The notes under the pieces: model-generated
The model's input: the letters and a program-made list of their open reading frames with translations, nothing else
What the model was told of the DNA's origin: nothing
Database searches by the model: none
Assembly (NCBI GenBank): GCA_902778275.1
Contig: CACYXE010000005.1
Span: 19,276 to 83,275 of the forward strand
DNA length: 64,000 nt
Direction: 5' to 3'
Source: Oscillospiraceae bacterium
GTDB lineage: Bacteria; Bacillota; Clostridia; Oscillospirales; Oscillospiraceae
Program-made: the position numbers and the translations under genes
Shown here: positions 46,784 to 54,564 of the stretch, in pieces
How positions within the stretch are numbered: the first letter of the stretch is position 1
Layout of the letters: each line of letters opens with the position of its first letter

Positions 46784-46816
46784 GCTCGAATCTCGATTCT
46801 CAAAACTCAAATCTCA
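46784..46816 (-). repeat. D-type microsatellite at the mazF stop codon
   Basis: On the minus strand the stop codon opens the array: TGAGATTTGAGTTTTGAG, then ATCGAGATTCGAG. Confidence 0.7.
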
Positions 46817-47155
46817 TCGAAGGCCGAAGGACACCGCCAGGGCGCTGTCCACAGCGCTCATGGTGCTCTCGTCCAGGCGGCCCATCCGCTCCCGCAGGCG
46901 GGATTTGTCCAGGGTGCGGATCTGCTCCAGCAGGATCACGCTGTCCCGGTTGAGCCCCACGCTCTGGCCGGACAGGCTGATGTGGGTGGGCAGGCGGGCC
47001 TTGCCCGTCTGGCTGGTGATGGCCGCCGCGATCACCGTGGGGCTGTGCCGGTTGCCGGTGTCGTTCTGCACGATCAGCACCGGGCGCATGCCCCCCTGCT
47101 CGCTGCCCACCACCGGGCTCAGATCCGCGTAATAGATATCTCCTCGTTTGACCAT
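46814..47155 (-). CDS. ndoA: MazF/NdoA-type endoribonuclease toxin
   Basis: The 113-aa protein matches the Firmicute EndoA/NdoA branch of MazF toxins, which cut single-stranded mRNA at short sites. [59 protein letters not shown] and [17 protein letters not shown] are all conserved, including the RPVLIVQN and ITSQ active-site blocks. No antitoxin gene lies directly upstream: the next gene is divergent. It may act as an orphan or pair with an unlinked antitoxin. Confidence 0.93.
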
Positions 47156-47306: not shown

Positions 47307-47360
47307 GCCACCGGAATGAGAAGGGCCGCCCGGCGGACGGGCGGCGGAAGGAGAGACAGG

Positions 47361-48137
47361 ATGAAGCGTATTTTTGCCATGTTTCTGTCGGCGCTGCTTG
47401 CGGCGTCGCTTTTGAGCGGCTGCGGGGAAAAGCCCCTCTTCGGCGTCAGCACCGAGGATGACAACAGCATTTCCATCACGGCGGTCAAGGCCCCGGACGG
47501 CAGCGTCGGCCTGGGCTATCTGACCGTGGGCGAGCGGGATGAAGTGGTGGTGGAGTCGACCATCCAGGGCGGCCAGATCCGCCTGCGCTATATGCGGGGC
47601 GTGCTGGGCAGCGAGGATTTCCCCGATGAGCCCACGGCCGAGAGCACCATCACGGAGGGCGTCATGCGCATCACCATCGAGCCGGGCGAGTATACCGTGG
47701 GCGTGATCGCCGAGGGCAAGCTGGACGGCGAGGCGAGGATCTACACGGAGGCCATCGTCCAAAGTTTGGAGGACGACCTGGGCTACAGCCCCGACGACAT
47801 GGCGGGCGTCTGGGCCGAGAAGATCGCCGGCCGGGGCAACATCGAGATCCGCAAGGGCGAAGCCGGGGACGGCTATGAGGTGCTGATCACCTGGGGCGCC
47901 AGCGCCGAGGAGACCTACGTCTGGACCATGACGGCCCGGGCCGAGGGCAGCAATCTGCTGCGCTACGAGGATGCCCGGCACAGCATCCTGCATTTCCACG
48001 AGGACGGCACCGACTCCGAGGAGCTGGTGTACGAAAACGGGACCGGCAGCTTTTCCCTCAACAGCGCCTATGAGCTGATGTGGCAGGACGACGTGGAGGA
48101 CGCCGGGCTGGACACGGTGTTCGTCCGCGCGGACTGA
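47361..48137 (+). CDS. Predicted lipoprotein of unknown function
   Basis: The 258-aa protein begins with a lipobox (FLSALLAASLLSGCGEKP), so it is attached to the outer face of the membrane through Cys20. The mature part is acidic and beta-rich (GVMRITIEPGEYTVGVIAEG; YEVLITWGASAEETYVWTMT), suggesting two beta-sandwich-like halves. I do not recognise the family. The ATG at 47361 has GGAAGGAGAG upstream. A strong terminator follows, so it is monocistronic. Confidence 0.8.
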   Translation: MKRIFAMFLSALLAASLLSGCGEKPLFGVSTEDDNSISITAVKAPDGSVGLGYLTVGERDEVVVESTIQGGQIRLRYMRGVLGSEDFPDEPTAESTITEGVMRITIEPGEYTVGVIAEGKLDGEARIYTEAIVQSLEDDLGYSPDDMAGVWAEKIAGRGNIEIRKGEAGDGYEVLITWGASAEETYVWTMTARAEGSNLLRYEDARHSILHFHEDGTDSEELVYENGTGSFSLNSAYELMWQDDVEDAGLDTVFVRAD

Positions 48138-48410: not shown

Positions 48411-50360
48411 ATGGAGAAGGCGACGCGAAAAAAGAATATCTCTCCCTGGATCAGGGCCCTCGTGTTCCTGCTCCTGCTGCTGAGCCTCGTACTGAGCCTG
48501 CAGGGGATCTTTAACATCGGCAACGTCACCAACAACTACCTGTCTGTCGCGGGATTCCATGACGAGCCGAGGAATACGCTGGACGCGGTCTACATCGGAG
48601 GCAGCAACGTGTATTACTTCTGGCAGCCGTCCCTGGCCTGGCAGGAATACGGGATGGCGGTCTACTCCCTTTCCACCGCCAGTATGCCCGTTCGTGCGTT
48701 CAGGTACGAGATCGAGGAAGCCCGGAAGACCCAGCCCGACGCTCTGTTCATTGTGTCGTTGAATTCTCTCAAAACGGATACGGTCAACCTGATCGGTCTG
48801 CACTCCACGGCCGATTGCATGCCCCTGTCCGGGACCAAGATCCGGATGGTGCGGGAGCTGGCCCCGGAAGCCGGCCTGACGGGCCTGGAGCAGCTGGAGT
48901 GCTACTTCCCCGGCCTTCGTTTTCACGCCTCCTGGCCGGAACTGGACTCCTCGCAATTCACGCACAGAACGTATCACATGAAGGGCACGGCGACCCATTT
49001 GGGTTACCTGAGCCGGAGTGGGATCAACGAATCGCGTTTTTACGCCACGGAGGCCCGGCTCCCCCTGGACGAAACCCAGAGCGCCGTACTGGCAGAGCTG
49101 CTGGATTACTGCGCCTCGGAACAGCTCCGGGTGCTGTTCACGCTGTGTCCCCAGGCTTTTGAGAACGAGAGCGACTACGCGGAGCTCAATACCGCGGTCG
49201 ACACGGTGCGGGAGCGGGGCTTCGAGGTCCTGGACCTGCGCGGCGCCATGGAGGAGATGGATCTGGATCTCCACAGGGATTTCCTGGATCTGCGGCACAC
49301 CAACGTCCACGGCGCGCTGAAGTATACCCACTATCTGGGCGCCTGGCTGCGGGAGCGTTACGGCTTCACCGACAAGCGGGGCGACCCGGCCTATGCCTCC
49401 TGGGACGCGGCCGCGGCGGAATACGAGCAGATCATCGCGCCCTATGCGCTGGACTTTGAGCGGGAGCACGCGCCGAGGGCCTATGAACTGGAAGCGCCGG
49501 AGCTGACGGAGGCCAGGGCCACCGGCTGCAGCTTCCGGCTGACCTGGACGCCCAGCGAGGGGGCCGACGGCTATCGGCTCTACCGCAAGCACCTCCTGCC
49601 CGCAGAGGATCCGGTAACTCCGGCGGAAGCGGCTTGGGTCTGCGTCGCGGACCTGGACGCGGACACGCTGACCTGTATGGACAGAGACCTGGCGCTGAAC
49701 GCCACCTATGCCTACACCGTCGCCCCCTATCTGCTCCGGGACGGGGAAAAGCGCTTCGGTCCGTTCGATTACGCCGGAAAGGGCGGGACCACGGTCCTGA
49801 GCGCGCCCAAGCTGCTGTCCCTGGAGGAGGGCCCGGAGGGCATGACGCTCAGCTGGGCGGAGATGAACGGGACGGACGGCTACGCCGTTTACCGGAAGAT
49901 CCCGGGGCGCGCCTGGGTCCGCATCGCGGTCCTGGAGGGCCCGGCGAACACGTATACGGACCGCAGCGCCCTGCCGGGCGTCCCCTACCAGTACTCGGCG
50001 GGCGGATATCAGGCACTGGCGGATGAGACCGTCTACGGCTATTACCACCACGGGGGACTGCTGCGCCCGGCGGCGCTGGAGACGCCGGAGCCGTGCGCGG
50101 AGCGGGCCGGGGACGGCTCGGTGCTGCTGCGATGGAACGCCGTGGAGGGCGCCTCCCACTACGCCGTGTACCGGCAGACGCCCGGCGGCGATTGGGAGCA
50201 GCTGGGCGAGGACCTGCCGGCGGGGACGCTGGACTATACGGTCGACGCCGGGGACGGGGACGCCGTCTTCCGGGTGTCCGCGCTGATCCGGTATGAATCG
50301 GAACGCTATGAATATCCCTCCGACGGCGTGATCGTAAAGGCAGGTGAAGCGGCTCCATGA
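48411..50360 (+). CDS. Membrane-anchored SGNH acyltransferase-like protein with three FN3 domains
   Basis: The 649-aa protein has a membrane anchor (residues 13-33, WIRALVFLLLLLSLVLSL). An extracytoplasmic SGNH hydrolase fold follows, with nucleophile Ser65 in DAVYIGGSNVYYFW and catalytic Asp293/His296 in FLDLRHTNVHG, so the triad is intact. This is the DltD/AlgX-like partner that receives acyl groups from an MBOAT. From about 370 three fibronectin type III repeats follow (FRLTWTPSEGADGYRLYRK; MTLSWAEMNGTDGYAVYRK; VLLRWNAVEGASHYAVYRQ). FN3 tails are not part of ordinary DltD and may hold the enzyme to glycan. AAGGAAGAGG precedes the ATG at 48411. It is the first gene of a five-gene operon. 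Confidence 0.82.
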   Translation: MEKATRKKNISPWIRALVFLLLLLSLVLSLQGIFNIGNVTNNYLSVAGFHDEPRNTLDAVYIGGSNVYYFWQPSLAWQEYGMAVYSLSTASMPVRAFRYEIEEARKTQPDALFIVSLNSLKTDTVNLIGLHSTADCMPLSGTKIRMVRELAPEAGLTGLEQLECYFPGLRFHASWPELDSSQFTHRTYHMKGTATHLGYLSRSGINESRFYATEARLPLDETQSAVLAELLDYCASEQLRVLFTLCPQAFENESDYAELNTAVDTVRERGFEVLDLRGAMEEMDLDLHRDFLDLRHTNVHGALKYTHYLGAWLRERYGFTDKRGDPAYASWDAAAAEYEQIIAPYALDFEREHAPRAYELEAPELTEARATGCSFRLTWTPSEGADGYRLYRKHLLPAEDPVTPAEAAWVCVADLDADTLTCMDRDLALNATYAYTVAPYLLRDGEKRFGPFDYAGKGGTTVLSAPKLLSLEEGPEGMTLSWAEMNGTDGYAVYRKIPGRAWVRIAVLEGPANTYTDRSALPGVPYQYSAGGYQALADETVYGYYHHGGLLRPAALETPEPCAERAGDGSVLLRWNAVEGASHYAVYRQTPGGDWEQLGEDLPAGTLDYTVDAGDGDAVFRVSALIRYESERYEYPSDGVIVKAGEAAP

Positions 50361-51952
50361 CCTTTACTTCCTTCCCCTTTCTCTTGTTTGTCGCCGCGGT
50401 GGTCCTGGTCTACTATCTGGTTCCCGGGCGCTTCCAGTGGTGTGTCCTTCTGCTGGCCAGCCTGGTCTTCTACTGGGTGAACAGCCACTGGCTGCTGCTG
50501 GTGCTGCTGGCCGCCGCCGCCCTGACCTACGGCGCGGGGCGGGCGATCTATACGGTCAACGACGCGGGCAGGCGCTGTCTGAAGGAGCAGGGCGCCGCCC
50601 TCTCCAGAGAGGAAAAGAAGCTCTGCAAGGAGCGGACGAAGAAAAAGGCAAAGCGGATCCTGCTGCTGGGCGTCCTGCTGGACCTGGGCATGCTGCTGTT
50701 CCTGAAATACCACAATTTCTTCGCGGAGACCTCCAATTCCCTGCTGGGCCGCTTCGGGCTGACCATCCCCCTGCACCACCTGCTGCTGCCCCTGGGCATC
50801 TCCTATTACACCCTGCAGGCCATCGCCTACATGGTGGATATCTATCGGGGCAAGTACGAGCCGGACCGGAATTTCGGCAAGTTCCTGCTGTTCATGTCCT
50901 TCTTCCCCCAACTGATCCAGGGCCCCATCGCCCGGCACGACCAGCTGGCCCGGCAGCTGTACGCGGAGCACCGCTTCGACTATCAGCGCCTGTGCTACGG
51001 CGTCCAGCTGATGCTCTGGGGCTGGATGAAGAAGCTCATCATCGCGGACCGGCTGGCCATGCCGGTGGATCAGATCTTCAACAACAGCGCCCAGTACTCG
51101 GGCCTGCTGGTGTTCTTCGGCGCCGTGTGCTACGGCCTGCAGGTCTATACGGACTTCTCCGGCGGCATCGACGTGGCCCGGGGCTTTTCCCAGATCCTGG
51201 GCGTGGAGCTGGCCGAAAACTTCCGTCAGCCCTACTTCTCCCGCTCCATCGAGGAGTTCTGGAGGCGCTGGCACATCACCCTGGGCGCCTGGCTGCGGGA
51301 CTACGTGTTCTATCCCCTGTCCCTGTCCAAGACCTTCGGGAACCTGGGCAAGAAGGCCCGGAAGACCTTCGGGACCAGCTTCGGCAAAAAGCTGCCCGCC
51401 TTCCTGGCCATGTTCATCGTGTACTTCCTGGTGGGCTTCTGGCACGGCCCCAGCTGGAAATATATCGCCTTCGGCGTCTGGAACGCCGTGTTCATCATGT
51501 CCGGCATCCTGCTCAAGGAGTTTTACGAGGCCGCCAGGCAGAAATGCGGCATCCGGGAGGATGCTGTCACCTGGCGGGTCTTCCAGATGTTCCGCACCTT
51601 CCTGATCTGTTCCATGGGCCGCTTCTTCTCCCGGGCGGGCCGTCTGACCACGGCGGTCTCCATGTTCGCCTCCGTGTTCCGGAACACCCGGGACCTGTCC
51701 TTCCTGCTGGACGGGACCCTGCTCACCCTGGGGCTGGACACGGCCAACTGGTTTTTGCTGTTCATCGCCGTCCTGGTCCTCTTCGCGGTGGGCCTTCTCC
51801 ATGAGCGGGGCGTCAGGCTCCGGGACGCCATCGCGGCGCAGCCCCTGATCTTCCGCTGGGGCATCTACTGCGCGGCGGTGCTGGCACTGCTGGTCTTCGG
51901 CATGTACGGCCCGGCCTACAGCAAAACAGCCTTTATCTACGAACAGTTTTAG
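50357..51952 (+). CDS. MBOAT O-acyltransferase (DltB/AlgI-like)
   Basis: The 531-aa polytopic membrane protein moves acyl groups from a cytoplasmic carrier to the outside. Family blocks are ILLLGVLLDLGMLLFLKYHN, LPLGISYYTLQAIAYMVDIY, SFFPQLIQGPIARHDQLARQ, EEFWRRWHITLGAWLRDYVFYP, and the catalytic His in LVGFWHGPSWKYIAFGVWNA. About eleven membrane segments are visible. The start overlaps the previous stop (ATGA). With the adjacent ligase and carrier protein it should act as DltB does for D-alanine, on a donor that may differ. Confidence 0.92.
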   Translation: MTFTSFPFLLFVAAVVLVYYLVPGRFQWCVLLLASLVFYWVNSHWLLLVLLAAAALTYGAGRAIYTVNDAGRRCLKEQGAALSREEKKLCKERTKKKAKRILLLGVLLDLGMLLFLKYHNFFAETSNSLLGRFGLTIPLHHLLLPLGISYYTLQAIAYMVDIYRGKYEPDRNFGKFLLFMSFFPQLIQGPIARHDQLARQLYAEHRFDYQRLCYGVQLMLWGWMKKLIIADRLAMPVDQIFNNSAQYSGLLVFFGAVCYGLQVYTDFSGGIDVARGFSQILGVELAENFRQPYFSRSIEEFWRRWHITLGAWLRDYVFYPLSLSKTFGNLGKKARKTFGTSFGKKLPAFLAMFIVYFLVGFWHGPSWKYIAFGVWNAVFIMSGILLKEFYEAARQKCGIREDAVTWRVFQMFRTFLICSMGRFFSRAGRLTTAVSMFASVFRNTRDLSFLLDGTLLTLGLDTANWFLLFIAVLVLFAVGLLHERGVRLRDAIAAQPLIFRWGIYCAAVLALLVFGMYGPAYSKTAFIYEQF

Positions 51953-51963
51953 CGGAGGGAACC

Positions 51964-53481
51964 ATGACAGTCATCGATTATCTGGAGAGCGCCGAAGCCC
52001 GCTTTCCGGAAAAAACCGCTTTTTCCGACGTGGAAAAAGCCATAAGCTACCGGGAGCTGCTGGACCGCTCCCGCAGGATCGCCACCGCCCTGATCCGCAG
52101 GCTTTCCTGTGTGAACCAGCCGGTCATGGTGCTGGCGGACCGGAACGTTGAGAGCGTCGTCTCTTTCCTGGGCGTCGCCATGAGCCGGAACTTCTACGTG
52201 CCGGTGGACGTCTCGCAGCCCCCGCAGCGCATCCGGGCGATCCTGGAGCAGATGCGGCCGGTTGCGGTCGTCACCACCGGCCAGGTGGAAGCGGCTTTCT
52301 GCGCGCCGGCAGAGCTTCCGGTATACGCGTACGCGGACCTGGCGGAGGAGGCGGAGGATGCGCCGCTGCTGTCCCGTCTGCGCAGAACCTGTCTGGATTC
52401 GGACCCGCTCTACGCCATCTGTACCTCCGGCTCCACCGGGATCCCCAAGGGCGTGATCAAATCTCACCGCTCGATCACCAGCTTTATCCCCGTCTTCGCC
52501 GAGATCTTTCATTTCGGCGAGGAGGACGTGTTCGGCAACCAGGCGCCCTTTGATTTCGACGTGTCGGCAAAGGATATCTATTCCACGCTTTACTGCGGCG
52601 CCAGCGCGTATATCATCCCGCGGGTCTGTTTCTCCATGCCCAAAAAGCTGGTGGAGGAGCTGGATGAAAAGCGTGTGAGCACCCTGATCTGGTCGGTCTC
52701 CGCGCTGTGTGTCGCCGCCGGGCTCAACGCCTTCCGGCACCGGGTCCCGGGCTCCGTCAAGCGGGTCCTGTTTTCCGGCGAGGTGATGCCGGTGAAGATG
52801 CTGAACGTCTGGATGCGCTACTATCCGGACGCCACCTTTGCCAATCTCTTCGGGCCCACGGAGGTGACCGGAAACAGCCTGTACTATATCGTGGACCGGA
52901 AATTCCAGGACACGGAGAAGCTCCCCCTCGGACAGGCCTTCCCCAACGGGGAGGTGCTTTTCCTCAATGAGAAGAACGAACCCATCCGCCCGGGAGAGAC
53001 GGGAGAGATCTGCATCGTGAGCACCAGTCTCGCCCTGGGCTATTACCGGGATCACGAACGGACCGCGGCGGCCTTCGTGCAGAATCCCCTGAACGACCGT
53101 TACCCCGAGCGCATGTACCGCACCGGGGACCTGGCCGAGCTGCGGGAAGACGGGCAGTATTATTTCGTCGCCCGGAAGGATTTCCAGATCAAGCACATGG
53201 GCCACCGCATCGAGCTGGAGGAGATCGAGATCCACCTTAACGCCGTGGAGGGCGTCACCCGGGCCAGCTGCCTGTTCGACGAGAACCGGAACAAGATCGT
53301 CGCCTGCTACGCGGGCGCGCCCGACAGGGCGGAGATCGTCGAGGAACTGAAAAAGAGCCTGCCCAAGTACATGATCCCCAACGTCTTCCTGCGGATGGAG
53401 GCGCTGCCGCTGAACAAAAACGGGAAGATCGACCGGCAGGAGCTGCGGCGGATGTACGCGGAGGGGGCGTCCGGGTCATGA
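51964..53481 (+). CDS. Amino-acid adenylation enzyme (DltA-like)
   Basis: The 505-aa enzyme activates a carboxylic acid, most likely an amino acid, as AMP ester and loads it on the carrier protein. Core motifs are ICTSGSTGIPKGVIKSHRS (A3), NLFGPTEVTGNSLYYI (A5), YRTGDLAELREDGQYYFVAR (A7), IKHMGHRIELEEIEIHLNAV (A8) and LPLNKNGKIDRQEL with Lys488 (A10). The layout is that of DltA and stand-alone NRPS A domains. The substrate cannot be read reliably. It starts 11 bp after the MBOAT gene, with AGCGGAGG upstream. Confidence 0.9.
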   Translation: MTVIDYLESAEARFPEKTAFSDVEKAISYRELLDRSRRIATALIRRLSCVNQPVMVLADRNVESVVSFLGVAMSRNFYVPVDVSQPPQRIRAILEQMRPVAVVTTGQVEAAFCAPAELPVYAYADLAEEAEDAPLLSRLRRTCLDSDPLYAICTSGSTGIPKGVIKSHRSITSFIPVFAEIFHFGEEDVFGNQAPFDFDVSAKDIYSTLYCGASAYIIPRVCFSMPKKLVEELDEKRVSTLIWSVSALCVAAGLNAFRHRVPGSVKRVLFSGEVMPVKMLNVWMRYYPDATFANLFGPTEVTGNSLYYIVDRKFQDTEKLPLGQAFPNGEVLFLNEKNEPIRPGETGEICIVSTSLALGYYRDHERTAAAFVQNPLNDRYPERMYRTGDLAELREDGQYYFVARKDFQIKHMGHRIELEEIEIHLNAVEGVTRASCLFDENRNKIVACYAGAPDRAEIVEELKKSLPKYMIPNVFLRMEALPLNKNGKIDRQELRRMYAEGASGS

Positions 53482-54341
53482 GAAAAATCTTTCTGCTGGG
53501 CACCGCCCGGCTGCTGTACCGCTGCGCGGAGCTGCTCGCGGGGCACTACGGCACGGAAGCCGTCCGCATCCTGGATATCGCCCCGACCATGGCGAACAAA
53601 AAATACGCGGAGCTCTATTCCGTGCGCTCCGGCGGCAAACAGGAGCTGTTCGATCTCCTGCGGGGCGTCTCGGAGCCGGCCTTCCTCCTGACCGTCAACT
53701 GCCCTTACATCATTCCGGCGGATATCATCGGCAAGCCGGAATTGACCTTGCTCAATCTCCACCACGCGCTGCTTCCGGCCCACCCCGGCCGCAACGCGGA
53801 GGCCTGGACGATCTTCAGCGGGGATCCCCGGGGCGGCGTCACCTGGCATTATCTGACCGCAGACGTGGACGCGGGGAACGTCCTGTATCAGGGCTCGGTC
53901 CCCATCGGCGAAAACACTACCTCCCTCTCCCTTCTCAAGGCCTGCGAGGAGCTGGCCCTGGACGGGCTGCGGCGGCTGATCCCCCTGGAACAGCTGGGCG
54001 CGGGCGTCCCGCAGCCTGTGACCGGGGAAACGCGGCAGCTGCATCGGCTGCGGGAGGTCCCGGGAGACGGCGTCCTCGATCTGGACTGGACAGCGGAGGA
54101 GATGAGCCGTTTTCTGCGGGCGATGGATTACGGCGTCCTCCGGGTCCTGGGCACGCCGAAGCTGCGGATCGACGGCGCGGAATATCAGATCAAACGGTAT
54201 ACCATCCAAAAGGCAGCCGCCGGCGGGGACACCCGATCCCTTTCCTTTGATCAACTGCCGGACGCCCTTACGATCCGGGACTCCGGCATGGTGATCCGGC
54301 TGAAAACCAAAAAATGCATAGAGGAGGCTTATCATGGATAA
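53478..54341 (+). CDS. Formyltransferase (Fmt/ArnA-N-like) within the dlt-like operon
   Basis: The 287-aa enzyme has the N10-formyltetrahydrofolate hydrolase/transferase fold. The catalytic set is intact: Asn93 and His95 in LLNLHHALLPAHPGRN, and Asp131 in GVTWHYLTADVDAGNVLYQ. The N-terminus (RKIFLLGTARLLYRCAELL) is unlike Met-tRNA formyltransferase, and the usual C-terminal tRNA-binding domain is short (REVPGDGVLDLDWTAEEMSR then about 70 residues). Relatives formylate amino sugars, or an aminoacyl-carrier as in the F domain of gramicidin synthetase. ATGA overlap with the ligase gene and 8-bp overlap with the carrier gene imply that all three act on one intermediate. Confidence 0.87.
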   Translation: MRKIFLLGTARLLYRCAELLAGHYGTEAVRILDIAPTMANKKYAELYSVRSGGKQELFDLLRGVSEPAFLLTVNCPYIIPADIIGKPELTLLNLHHALLPAHPGRNAEAWTIFSGDPRGGVTWHYLTADVDAGNVLYQGSVPIGENTTSLSLLKACEELALDGLRRLIPLEQLGAGVPQPVTGETRQLHRLREVPGDGVLDLDWTAEEMSRFLRAMDYGVLRVLGTPKLRIDGAEYQIKRYTIQKAAAGGDTRSLSFDQLPDALTIRDSGMVIRLKTKKCIEEAYHG

Positions 54342-54564
54342 AGTCTTGCAGATCCTGCAGGAGATCCGCCCGGACGTGGATTTCCTCAACGAGAAAAAGC
54401 TCATCGACGGCGGAGTCCTGGATTCCTTCGATATCATCTCCATCGTCGGCGAATTCAACGACGTCTTCGACATCGACATCGACGTGGAGGATCTGGAGCC
54501 TTACAACTTCAACTCCGTGGAAGCGATGCGGGAGCTGATCACAAAGCTGCAGAACGAGGATTGA
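54334..54564 (+). CDS. Acyl/peptidyl carrier protein (DltC-like)
   Basis: The 76-aa acidic helical protein is a phosphopantetheine carrier. Ser31 in GGVLDSFDIISIVGEF is the attachment site, in the LDSF context seen in DltC and NRPS carriers. IDVEDLEPYNFNSVEAMREL forms helices III and IV. It overlaps the formyltransferase gene by 8 bp. It is the last gene of the operon and should carry the activated, possibly formylated, amino acid to the MBOAT. Confidence 0.92.
   Translation: MDKVLQILQEIRPDVDFLNEKKLIDGGVLDSFDIISIVGEFNDVFDIDIDVEDLEPYNFNSVEAMRELITKLQNED

Follow-up and report, generated by a model that had tools for sequence, protein, structure and literature searches.

A proposed Dlt-type surface-acylation operon with a predicted formyl tailoring step in an Oscillospiraceae bacterium

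A five-gene operon from an Oscillospiraceae bacterium appears to encode a Dlt-type surface-acylation pathway with a built-in formyl tailoring step. The operon occupies positions 48411-54564 on the plus strand of the window, by which we mean the whole 64,000-nucleotide stretch of contig CACYXE010000005.1 (assembly GCA_902778275.1) that was analysed. Its genes specify an SGNH-like protein with fibronectin type III (FN3)-like domains, a membrane-bound O-acyltransferase (MBOAT), an adenylation (A) enzyme, a formyltransferase (FT) and a carrier protein (Table 1). We propose, with a probability of roughly 0.6, that an N-formyl-aminoacyl group is made on the carrier and then passed to a surface polymer. 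This proposal starts from features that are present in the sequence itself, namely, the gene set, the protein families, the conserved residues, an acyl-shuttle motif in the MBOAT, and the appearance of either an FT or a GNAT protein in the same slot of related operons.

The operon and its proposed pathway

An earlier note, made from the sequence of this stretch, had reported five overlapping or closely spaced genes. All five open reading frames (ORFs) are present on the plus strand as reported; three of the four gene junctions overlap, and the remaining gap is 11 bp. Pfam agrees with the note on the MBOAT (PF03062, E 9e-18), the A domain (AMP-binding, E 3e-57), the formyltransferase (Formyl_trans_N, E 2e-19) and the carrier (PP-binding, E 1e-4). 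The packed genes and the existence of homologous operons elsewhere rule out a chance neighbourhood. Scans for transcription signals were not informative: two promoter-like sites were found where 1.3 were expected, and 13 terminator-like sites where 4.1 were expected, 11 of the 13 inside the five genes. The host genome is a draft, 84% complete.

In the pathway that we propose, the A enzyme would activate an amino acid, probably an acidic one, and load it onto the phosphopantetheine of carrier Ser31. The FT, using N10-formyl-tetrahydrofolate, would formylate the amino group of the carrier-bound amino acid. The DltB-like MBOAT would next move the N-formyl-aminoacyl group to Tyr528 within its own C-terminal FIYEQF sequence, and the SGNH-like protein would accept the group on Ser65 outside the cell before attaching it to a hydroxyl group on a surface polymer, possibly a polymer of the glycerol-phosphate type. 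We infer the order of these steps, the carrier-bound state of the substrate, the acidic nature of the amino acid and the acceptor from the evidence that is laid out in the following sections.

Table 1. Genes of the operon and two genes upstream of it, in window coordinates
Feature	Coordinates	Strand	Basis
Membrane-anchored SGNH-like acyltransferase, about three C-terminal FN3-like domains, putative DltD/PatB-like role	48411..50360	+	ORF, conserved residues, model, fold matches
DltB-like MBOAT acyltransferase	50357..51952	+	PF03062, PDB DltB matches, C-terminal FIYEQF
Stand-alone A enzyme, DltA-like	51964..53481	+	TIGR01733, pocket
FT of a carrier-associated clade; N93, H95, D131	53478..54341	+	PF00551, tree, triad, model
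Aminoacyl carrier protein, DltC-like, Ser31	54334..54564	+	PP-binding, PDB matches
Small MazF-like gene	46814..47155		named by eye
Lipoprotein-like gene	47358..48137		

The formyltransferase and its homologues

The FT residues singled out in the earlier note, Asn93, His95 and Asp131, are kept in 38 of 38 aligned formyltransferases, and the predicted model (mean pLDDT, a per-residue confidence score, 80) matches formyltransferase structures. The FT gene is separate and overlaps the A and carrier genes, rather than being fused to an A-T module. Scans that used only the FT, at E<=1e-18, covered overlapping samples of 391, 392 and 398 genomes and gave two matches (the window's own genome and G771), three (G771, G913 and G949) and two (own and G1464), respectively. 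All four homologues thus found besides the window's are accompanied by A and carrier functions. In G1464, the A, FT and acyl carrier protein (ACP) genes stand in a row, and the FT frame overlaps the end of the A gene. The FT of G771 is on the same strand as the A and ACP genes and in one cluster with them, but at a distance of about 7 kb, so that there is no A-FT-ACP run. In G913 and G949, the FT is the N-terminal part of a nonribosomal peptide synthetase (NRPS); a condensation match below threshold comes next, and then an A domain. These two clostridial NRPSs (loci L152 and L153) have open frames of more than 5,000 amino acids, with the formylation (F) domain first; an excerpt of a review states that only three NRPS products with F domains have been described (PMC8949500).

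Two more FTs came from searches based on the A enzyme. Locus L032 is a dlt-like operon with the order A-ACP-FT, in which the FT follows the carrier, and congener G1624, from a genus scan for the A enzyme, has a dlt-like operon with the order SGNH-A-FT-other-ACP-MBOAT. In a phylogenetic tree, the seven FTs (window, L032, G1624, G771, G913, G949 and G1464) form one clade (support 100/98) that is apart from 29 Fmt-like proteins, Escherichia coli Fmt and ArnA. The 29 proteins are among the weaker matches from an FT search of 99 relatives at E<=1e-5, where the best match other than the window's own reached 3.4e-17; these 29 lie on the Fmt side of the tree. The position of the FT in its own clade rules out that it is a second Fmt. 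As a separate matter, the tree reveals a second Fmt-like group in congeners (L003, L004, L005, L009, L023 and L029), distinct from the main Fmt set.

Known F domains formylate the amino acid after it has been loaded onto the T domain (excerpt of PMC8949500). Because the homologues found with the FT alone sit with A and carrier functions, and because the FT clade is apart from Fmt and ArnA, the FT of the window most likely formylates a carrier-bound amino acid.

Sister operons and the exchangeable slot

A scan of relatives' contigs with the A enzyme found at least 79 loci. In a second scan, 29 of 394 genomes from the order, counting the window's own, matched the enzyme at E<=1e-130. From these two scans, we drew a sample of 110 A domains, including the window's; loci L001-L030 (from the FT search), L110 (the window's own copy) and A matches below 420 bits were dropped before classes were counted. 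Class labels were assigned with phmmer seeds (five GNAT, one decarboxylase and two FT proteins) at a 28-bit cut. After the A gene, this procedure found a decarboxylase match in 73 cases, a GNAT match in 12, an FT in 2 and the carrier directly ("none") in 19; the other 4 were unclassified. However, a 265-amino-acid gene between A and carrier in L118, counted as "none", encodes a GNAT protein, and the corrected counts are 13 GNAT and 18 "none" of 110. Among the examples submitted to Pfam, the decarboxylase label was supported in two of two and the GNAT label in six of six.

Decarboxylase-type sister operons carry a pyridoxal phosphate (PLP) decarboxylase beside the A gene. In L031, L034, L035 and L038-L041, the slot between A and carrier, which the FT fills in the window, is taken by a protein whose C-terminal half matches GNAT. 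In a tree of A domains, the window falls in a 13-row set (seven GNAT, two FT including L032, and four unclassified; support 100), and a separate 77-row set consists of 73 decarboxylase and four "none" rows (support 99). The earlier note had stated that absence of the FT from most homologous operons would refute its proposal, and such absence is literally what we found: an FT accompanies 2 of the 110 A domains, with one more in a congener. We therefore rejected the FT as a defining feature of the family. We do not take its rarity to defeat carrier formylation, because another N-acylase fills the slot in the nearest operons.

We consider this exchangeable tailoring slot to be the most interesting point. 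It suggests, tentatively and at a little short of even odds, a modular Dlt-type family in Clostridia in which one acidic amino acid is loaded onto the carrier and tailored by an exchangeable decarboxylase, GNAT protein or FT, so that the operon type would set the charge of the polymer as cationic, zwitterionic or anionic. The predicted groups are beta-alanyl or gamma-aminobutyric acid (GABA)-like for decarboxylase operons, N-acetyl-aminoacyl for GNAT operons and N-formyl-aminoacyl for FT operons.

Some loci depart from the common arrangement. L079 (L079:837-10701) has co-directional carrier, GNAT, SDR-like, A-like, MBOAT, SGNH, A and decarboxylase genes, and thus both tailoring enzymes together. 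In L033 (L033:2821-13309), an SGNH-MBOAT-PF00884 protein-A run precedes two genes named by eye, one for a nucleotidyltransferase-aminotransferase-like fusion and the other cyclodeaminase-like, and no carrier match was found in the stretch. L035 has A, GNAT and carrier genes, with no MBOAT or SGNH match in the stretch examined. The proposed family would also include two Coriobacteriaceae bins; in one, only the A, GNAT and carrier genes were seen. GNAT-like, ketosynthase III (KSIII)-like, SDR-like and similar names for neighbours in G771, G1464, L079 and L089 were given by eye, and a 281-amino-acid GNAT-like protein of G771 has no match to the GNAT seeds.

The adenylation enzyme and its predicted substrate

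The A enzyme scores 319.3 bits against TIGR01733, above the cut-off of 317.4. Among PDB sequences, DltA is the best single-stretch match (216 bits), whereas synthetases with two A domains score higher in sum. The predicted pocket is D235, V236, K239, W278, L299, S301, L322, G330, N331 and K517, mapped by motif to GrsA numbering. In all 73 decarboxylase-type rows, D, V, K, W, S, C, N and K occupy positions 235, 236, 239, 278, 301, 330, 331 and 517. Residues D235, V236, K239, W278, S301 and N331 are common to both FT rows, to 73 of 73 decarboxylase rows and to 10 of 12 GNAT rows (10 of 13 after relabelling). Given pockets that are nearly identical across the decarboxylase, FT and most GNAT types, the same amino acid is probably loaded in all three.

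We take Asp235 to correspond to a conserved Asp of related beta-amino acid enzymes. That Asp touches the substrate amino group in those enzymes (excerpt of PMC11284099), and its retention in the window's A domain fits an amino acid as substrate. The same excerpt reports that VinN loads 3-methyl-Asp onto the carrier VinL, where VinO decarboxylates it, and that FlvN takes Asp (PMC11284099). Because an amino acid can be decarboxylated on a carrier only if it has a second carboxylate, like 3-methyl-Asp on VinL, and because Lys stands at position 239, the substrate is probably an acidic amino acid. Separately, the A enzymes of L124, L126, L127 and L132, which occur in A-ACP-MBOAT runs, have Ser rather than Asp at position 235 and lack K239; they perhaps use an acyl group that is not an amino acid.

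The transfer proteins and the acceptor

The carrier has Ser31, as the earlier note indicated, within the sequence DSFD, and its two best matches among PDB sequences are D-alanyl carrier proteins. The MBOAT has two PDB matches, both DltB. A WHG sequence at its residues 362-364 presumably carries the catalytic His, and its C-terminus is FIYEQF (526-531), which includes Tyr528. Of 54 MBOATs that are 480 amino acids long or longer, 41 (the window's copy, L110, among them) have a C-terminal FxYxxF, and the other 13 have [LM]IYAx[FY]. In other systems, MBOATs hand acyl groups to the Tyr of FxYxxF and then to SGNH proteins, and non-Dlt MBOAT/SGNH pathways are said to lack a similar carrier protein (excerpt of PMC12148441). 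The window's MBOAT thus has the hallmark of MBOAT-SGNH envelope acyltransferases, a catalytic-His MBOAT with a C-terminal FxYxxF. Judged by its sequence, FIYEQF is an acyl-shuttle motif fused to the MBOAT, and carrier feeding and a fused shuttle co-occur in this operon.

The identity of the first protein as SGNH-like is weakly supported and is the weakest of the five labels. Residues S65, H296, N298 and G301 are invariant in 10 of 10 aligned rows, S65 comes after the first strand in a predicted model of moderate quality (mean pLDDT 72) and one relative (L043) has a sub-threshold GDSL match; we assign the label on these grounds. Two members of the triad proposed in the earlier note (Ser65, Asp293 and His296) are therefore constant, but at position 293 two of the 10 rows have Asn and the other 8 Asp; position 290 is Asp in 9 of 10 rows (both read off the alignment). 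Pfam gave no SGNH family match for the N-terminal domain, no SGNH chain is among the 50 fold matches shown for the whole protein, where FN3 chains lead, and a PDB profile search with the SGNH-like domain gave five matches up to E 1 that are unrelated (best E 0.03). Three FN3 repeats, also part of the note's description, are compatible with the model, and the top fold matches are three-domain fibronectin fragments; Pfam has one weak fn3 match, under the cut-off. Five relatives have shorter C-termini.

The earlier note had supposed that formylation neutralises the positive charge added by D-alanylation. That idea is not supported. It assumes a D-Ala-like substrate, but an acidic amino acid is what the pocket suggests, given that decarboxylase-type operons have it too, and the surface group may be anionic rather than neutral. 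The host genome encodes a PF04464 protein (TagB/TagF type, glycerophosphotransferase family), one PF00884 protein and one further MBOAT, and a teichoic-type polymer is a plausible acceptor. A title in the reference list of PMC10609480 names N-acetyl-D-aspart-4-yl groups on an O-antigen; decoration with N-acylated aspartyl groups thus has a precedent in a Gram-negative organism.

Alternative explanations

The main rival to formylation on the carrier is that the FT formylates a nucleotide amino sugar, as WbkC or ArnA do, and that the remaining operon products attach a normal amino acid, without a formyl group, to the resulting glycan. Sugar N-formyltransferases are the best PDB matches of the FT: GDP-perosamine N-formyltransferase is nearest by sequence (112 bits, compared with 95 for ArnA and 56 for the LgrA F domain) and also first by fold. 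Moreover, glycosyltransferase-like and sugar-aminotransferase-like genes lie near the G1464 set, and a pyruvyltransferase-like gene lies near the G771 FT (by eye), so formylated sugars are possible at these loci. However, we noticed no amino-sugar gene in or next to the operon when the ORF list for 44.7-58.4 kb was inspected by eye, GNAT proteins take the slot in sister loci, and the FT-only homologues and the FT clade have the associations described above. We regard the sugar explanation as unlikely. The formyl group might instead protect the carrier-bound amino acid for a time and be taken off once transfer is complete, like the terminal alanyl cap in vicenistatin biosynthesis. Such logic is described for carrier-bound beta-amino acids (excerpt of PMC11284099), but no deformylase-like or amidohydrolase-like gene was noticed by eye in the operon or its immediate flanks, with no family search of the wider window, and we consider this quite unlikely. 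Gene order does not fix the order of steps, and the FT could formylate a free amino acid before the A enzyme selects the N-formyl product; the retention of Asp235 and a pocket that is nearly unchanged in operons without an FT make this very unlikely. Finally, the product could be a small secreted N-formyl-aminoacyl compound or lipid, given that some FT homologues belong to NRPSs or to clusters that contain KSIII-like genes (by eye). This is highly improbable, because envelope acylation is the process in which an FxYxxF-bearing MBOAT and a membrane-anchored SGNH-like protein act as the transfer pair.

Other observations also weigh against an N-formyl-aminoacyl carrier that supplies a surface polymer, in addition to the sugar-type matches and neighbours and the SGNH label. 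FT-type dlt-like operons are rare, with three seen (window, L032 and G1624), and two of these came from A-based searches, so the FT context in L032 and G1624 is not independent evidence. The 1e-18 cut in the FT scans was our choice, and the FT tree has long branches, with ArnA as its only sugar FT. We take K239 as a sign of an acidic substrate, a link that draws on the decarboxylase operons; a literature text search for a Glu specificity code found nothing, and a review of A domains lacked all six terms sought there. Nor is K239 on its own a mark of tailoring operons, as 15 of 19 "none" rows and 13 of 16 congener A rows have it. The A pockets of G1624 and G771 lack K239, so the FT is not tied to one amino acid.

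With these points weighed, part of what the earlier note proposed is supported, namely, a dlt-like, carrier-fed MBOAT/SGNH-type system with an FT that most likely acts on a carrier-bound amino acid, as judged from the GNAT proteins in the same slot, the homologues with A and carrier, the separate clade and Asp235. Its step to a surface polymer did not gain the same footing.

Relation to known systems

The operon shares with the Dlt pathway (DltA, DltB, DltC, DltD and DltX) an A enzyme, a carrier, a DltB-like MBOAT and an SGNH-like partner. However, NCBIfam scores are all below the cut-offs for DltA (298.8 vs 559.85 bits), DltB (158.8 vs 375) and DltC (30.7 vs 68 and 18.1 vs 52.35), and the DltD model has no match in the operon. 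Unlike Dlt, it has an extra FT, a pocket with K239, and a shuttle fused to the MBOAT instead of DltX. There is no room for the DltX microprotein between the packed genes; the rest of the genome was not searched for it. DltA has Met and Cys where this pocket has K239 and S301.

PatA/PatB-type MBOAT-SGNH systems share the C-terminal FxYxxF shuttle on the MBOAT and an SGNH-type partner, but PatA uses acetyl-CoA, whereas here the acyl group would come from a carrier and an A enzyme. The F domain of LgrA, the linear gramicidin synthetase, shares the PF00551 family and the association with A and carrier; the window's FT differs in that it is a separate protein acting in trans, is nearer in sequence to sugar FTs, and is predicted to deliver its product to an acyltransferase pair. 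VinN/VinL/VinO and FlvN share a stand-alone A enzyme that loads an acidic amino acid onto a carrier, where a PLP decarboxylase tailors it, as predicted for the decarboxylase-type sister operons. They differ in serving polyketide starter pathways (beta-amino acid starter units) and are not known to include an MBOAT or SGNH protein. We found no published description of this gene set or idea in the open-access PMC literature.

Genomic setting

Of 102 genomes scanned in the genus, counting the window's own, 15 encode a related A enzyme (E<=1e-70), and only the window's exceeds 45% identity. Five congener regions were examined. In G030, G008 and G029, PlsC-FabG adjoins the MazF-like gene, a DUF gene and a phosphorylase gene, and the gap between FabG and the MazF-like gene is about 180-440 bp; in the window, this gap is 7.5 kb and is filled by the operon and, between it and the MazF-like gene, the lipoprotein-like gene, which falls in the stretch that is missing from these three congeners. 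G033 has FabG-PlsC, but no operon gene and none of those neighbours. Next to the same FabG, G018 carries a plain A-ACP-MBOAT-SGNH-like run (L164:1158-6652). These comparisons suggest that the operon was inserted in the window's lineage. The FabG flank is a possible hot spot for such operons.

Implications

D-alanylation is the textbook example of carrier-fed tuning of surface charge in Gram-positive bacteria. If the carrier-bound amino acid is decarboxylated, acetylated or formylated before transfer, then surface acylation has a tailoring logic like that of NRPSs. A carrier-fed MBOAT with a fused FxYxxF would also bridge two arrangements that are kept apart in the excerpt of PMC12148441. If carrier-bound amino acids can be tailored in these ways, many Lachnospiraceae, which contribute most of the named loci among the A-scan matches listed, would carry unrecognised aminoacyl decorations. 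More speculatively, N-formyl groups at the surface could bear on host sensing of formylated ligands.

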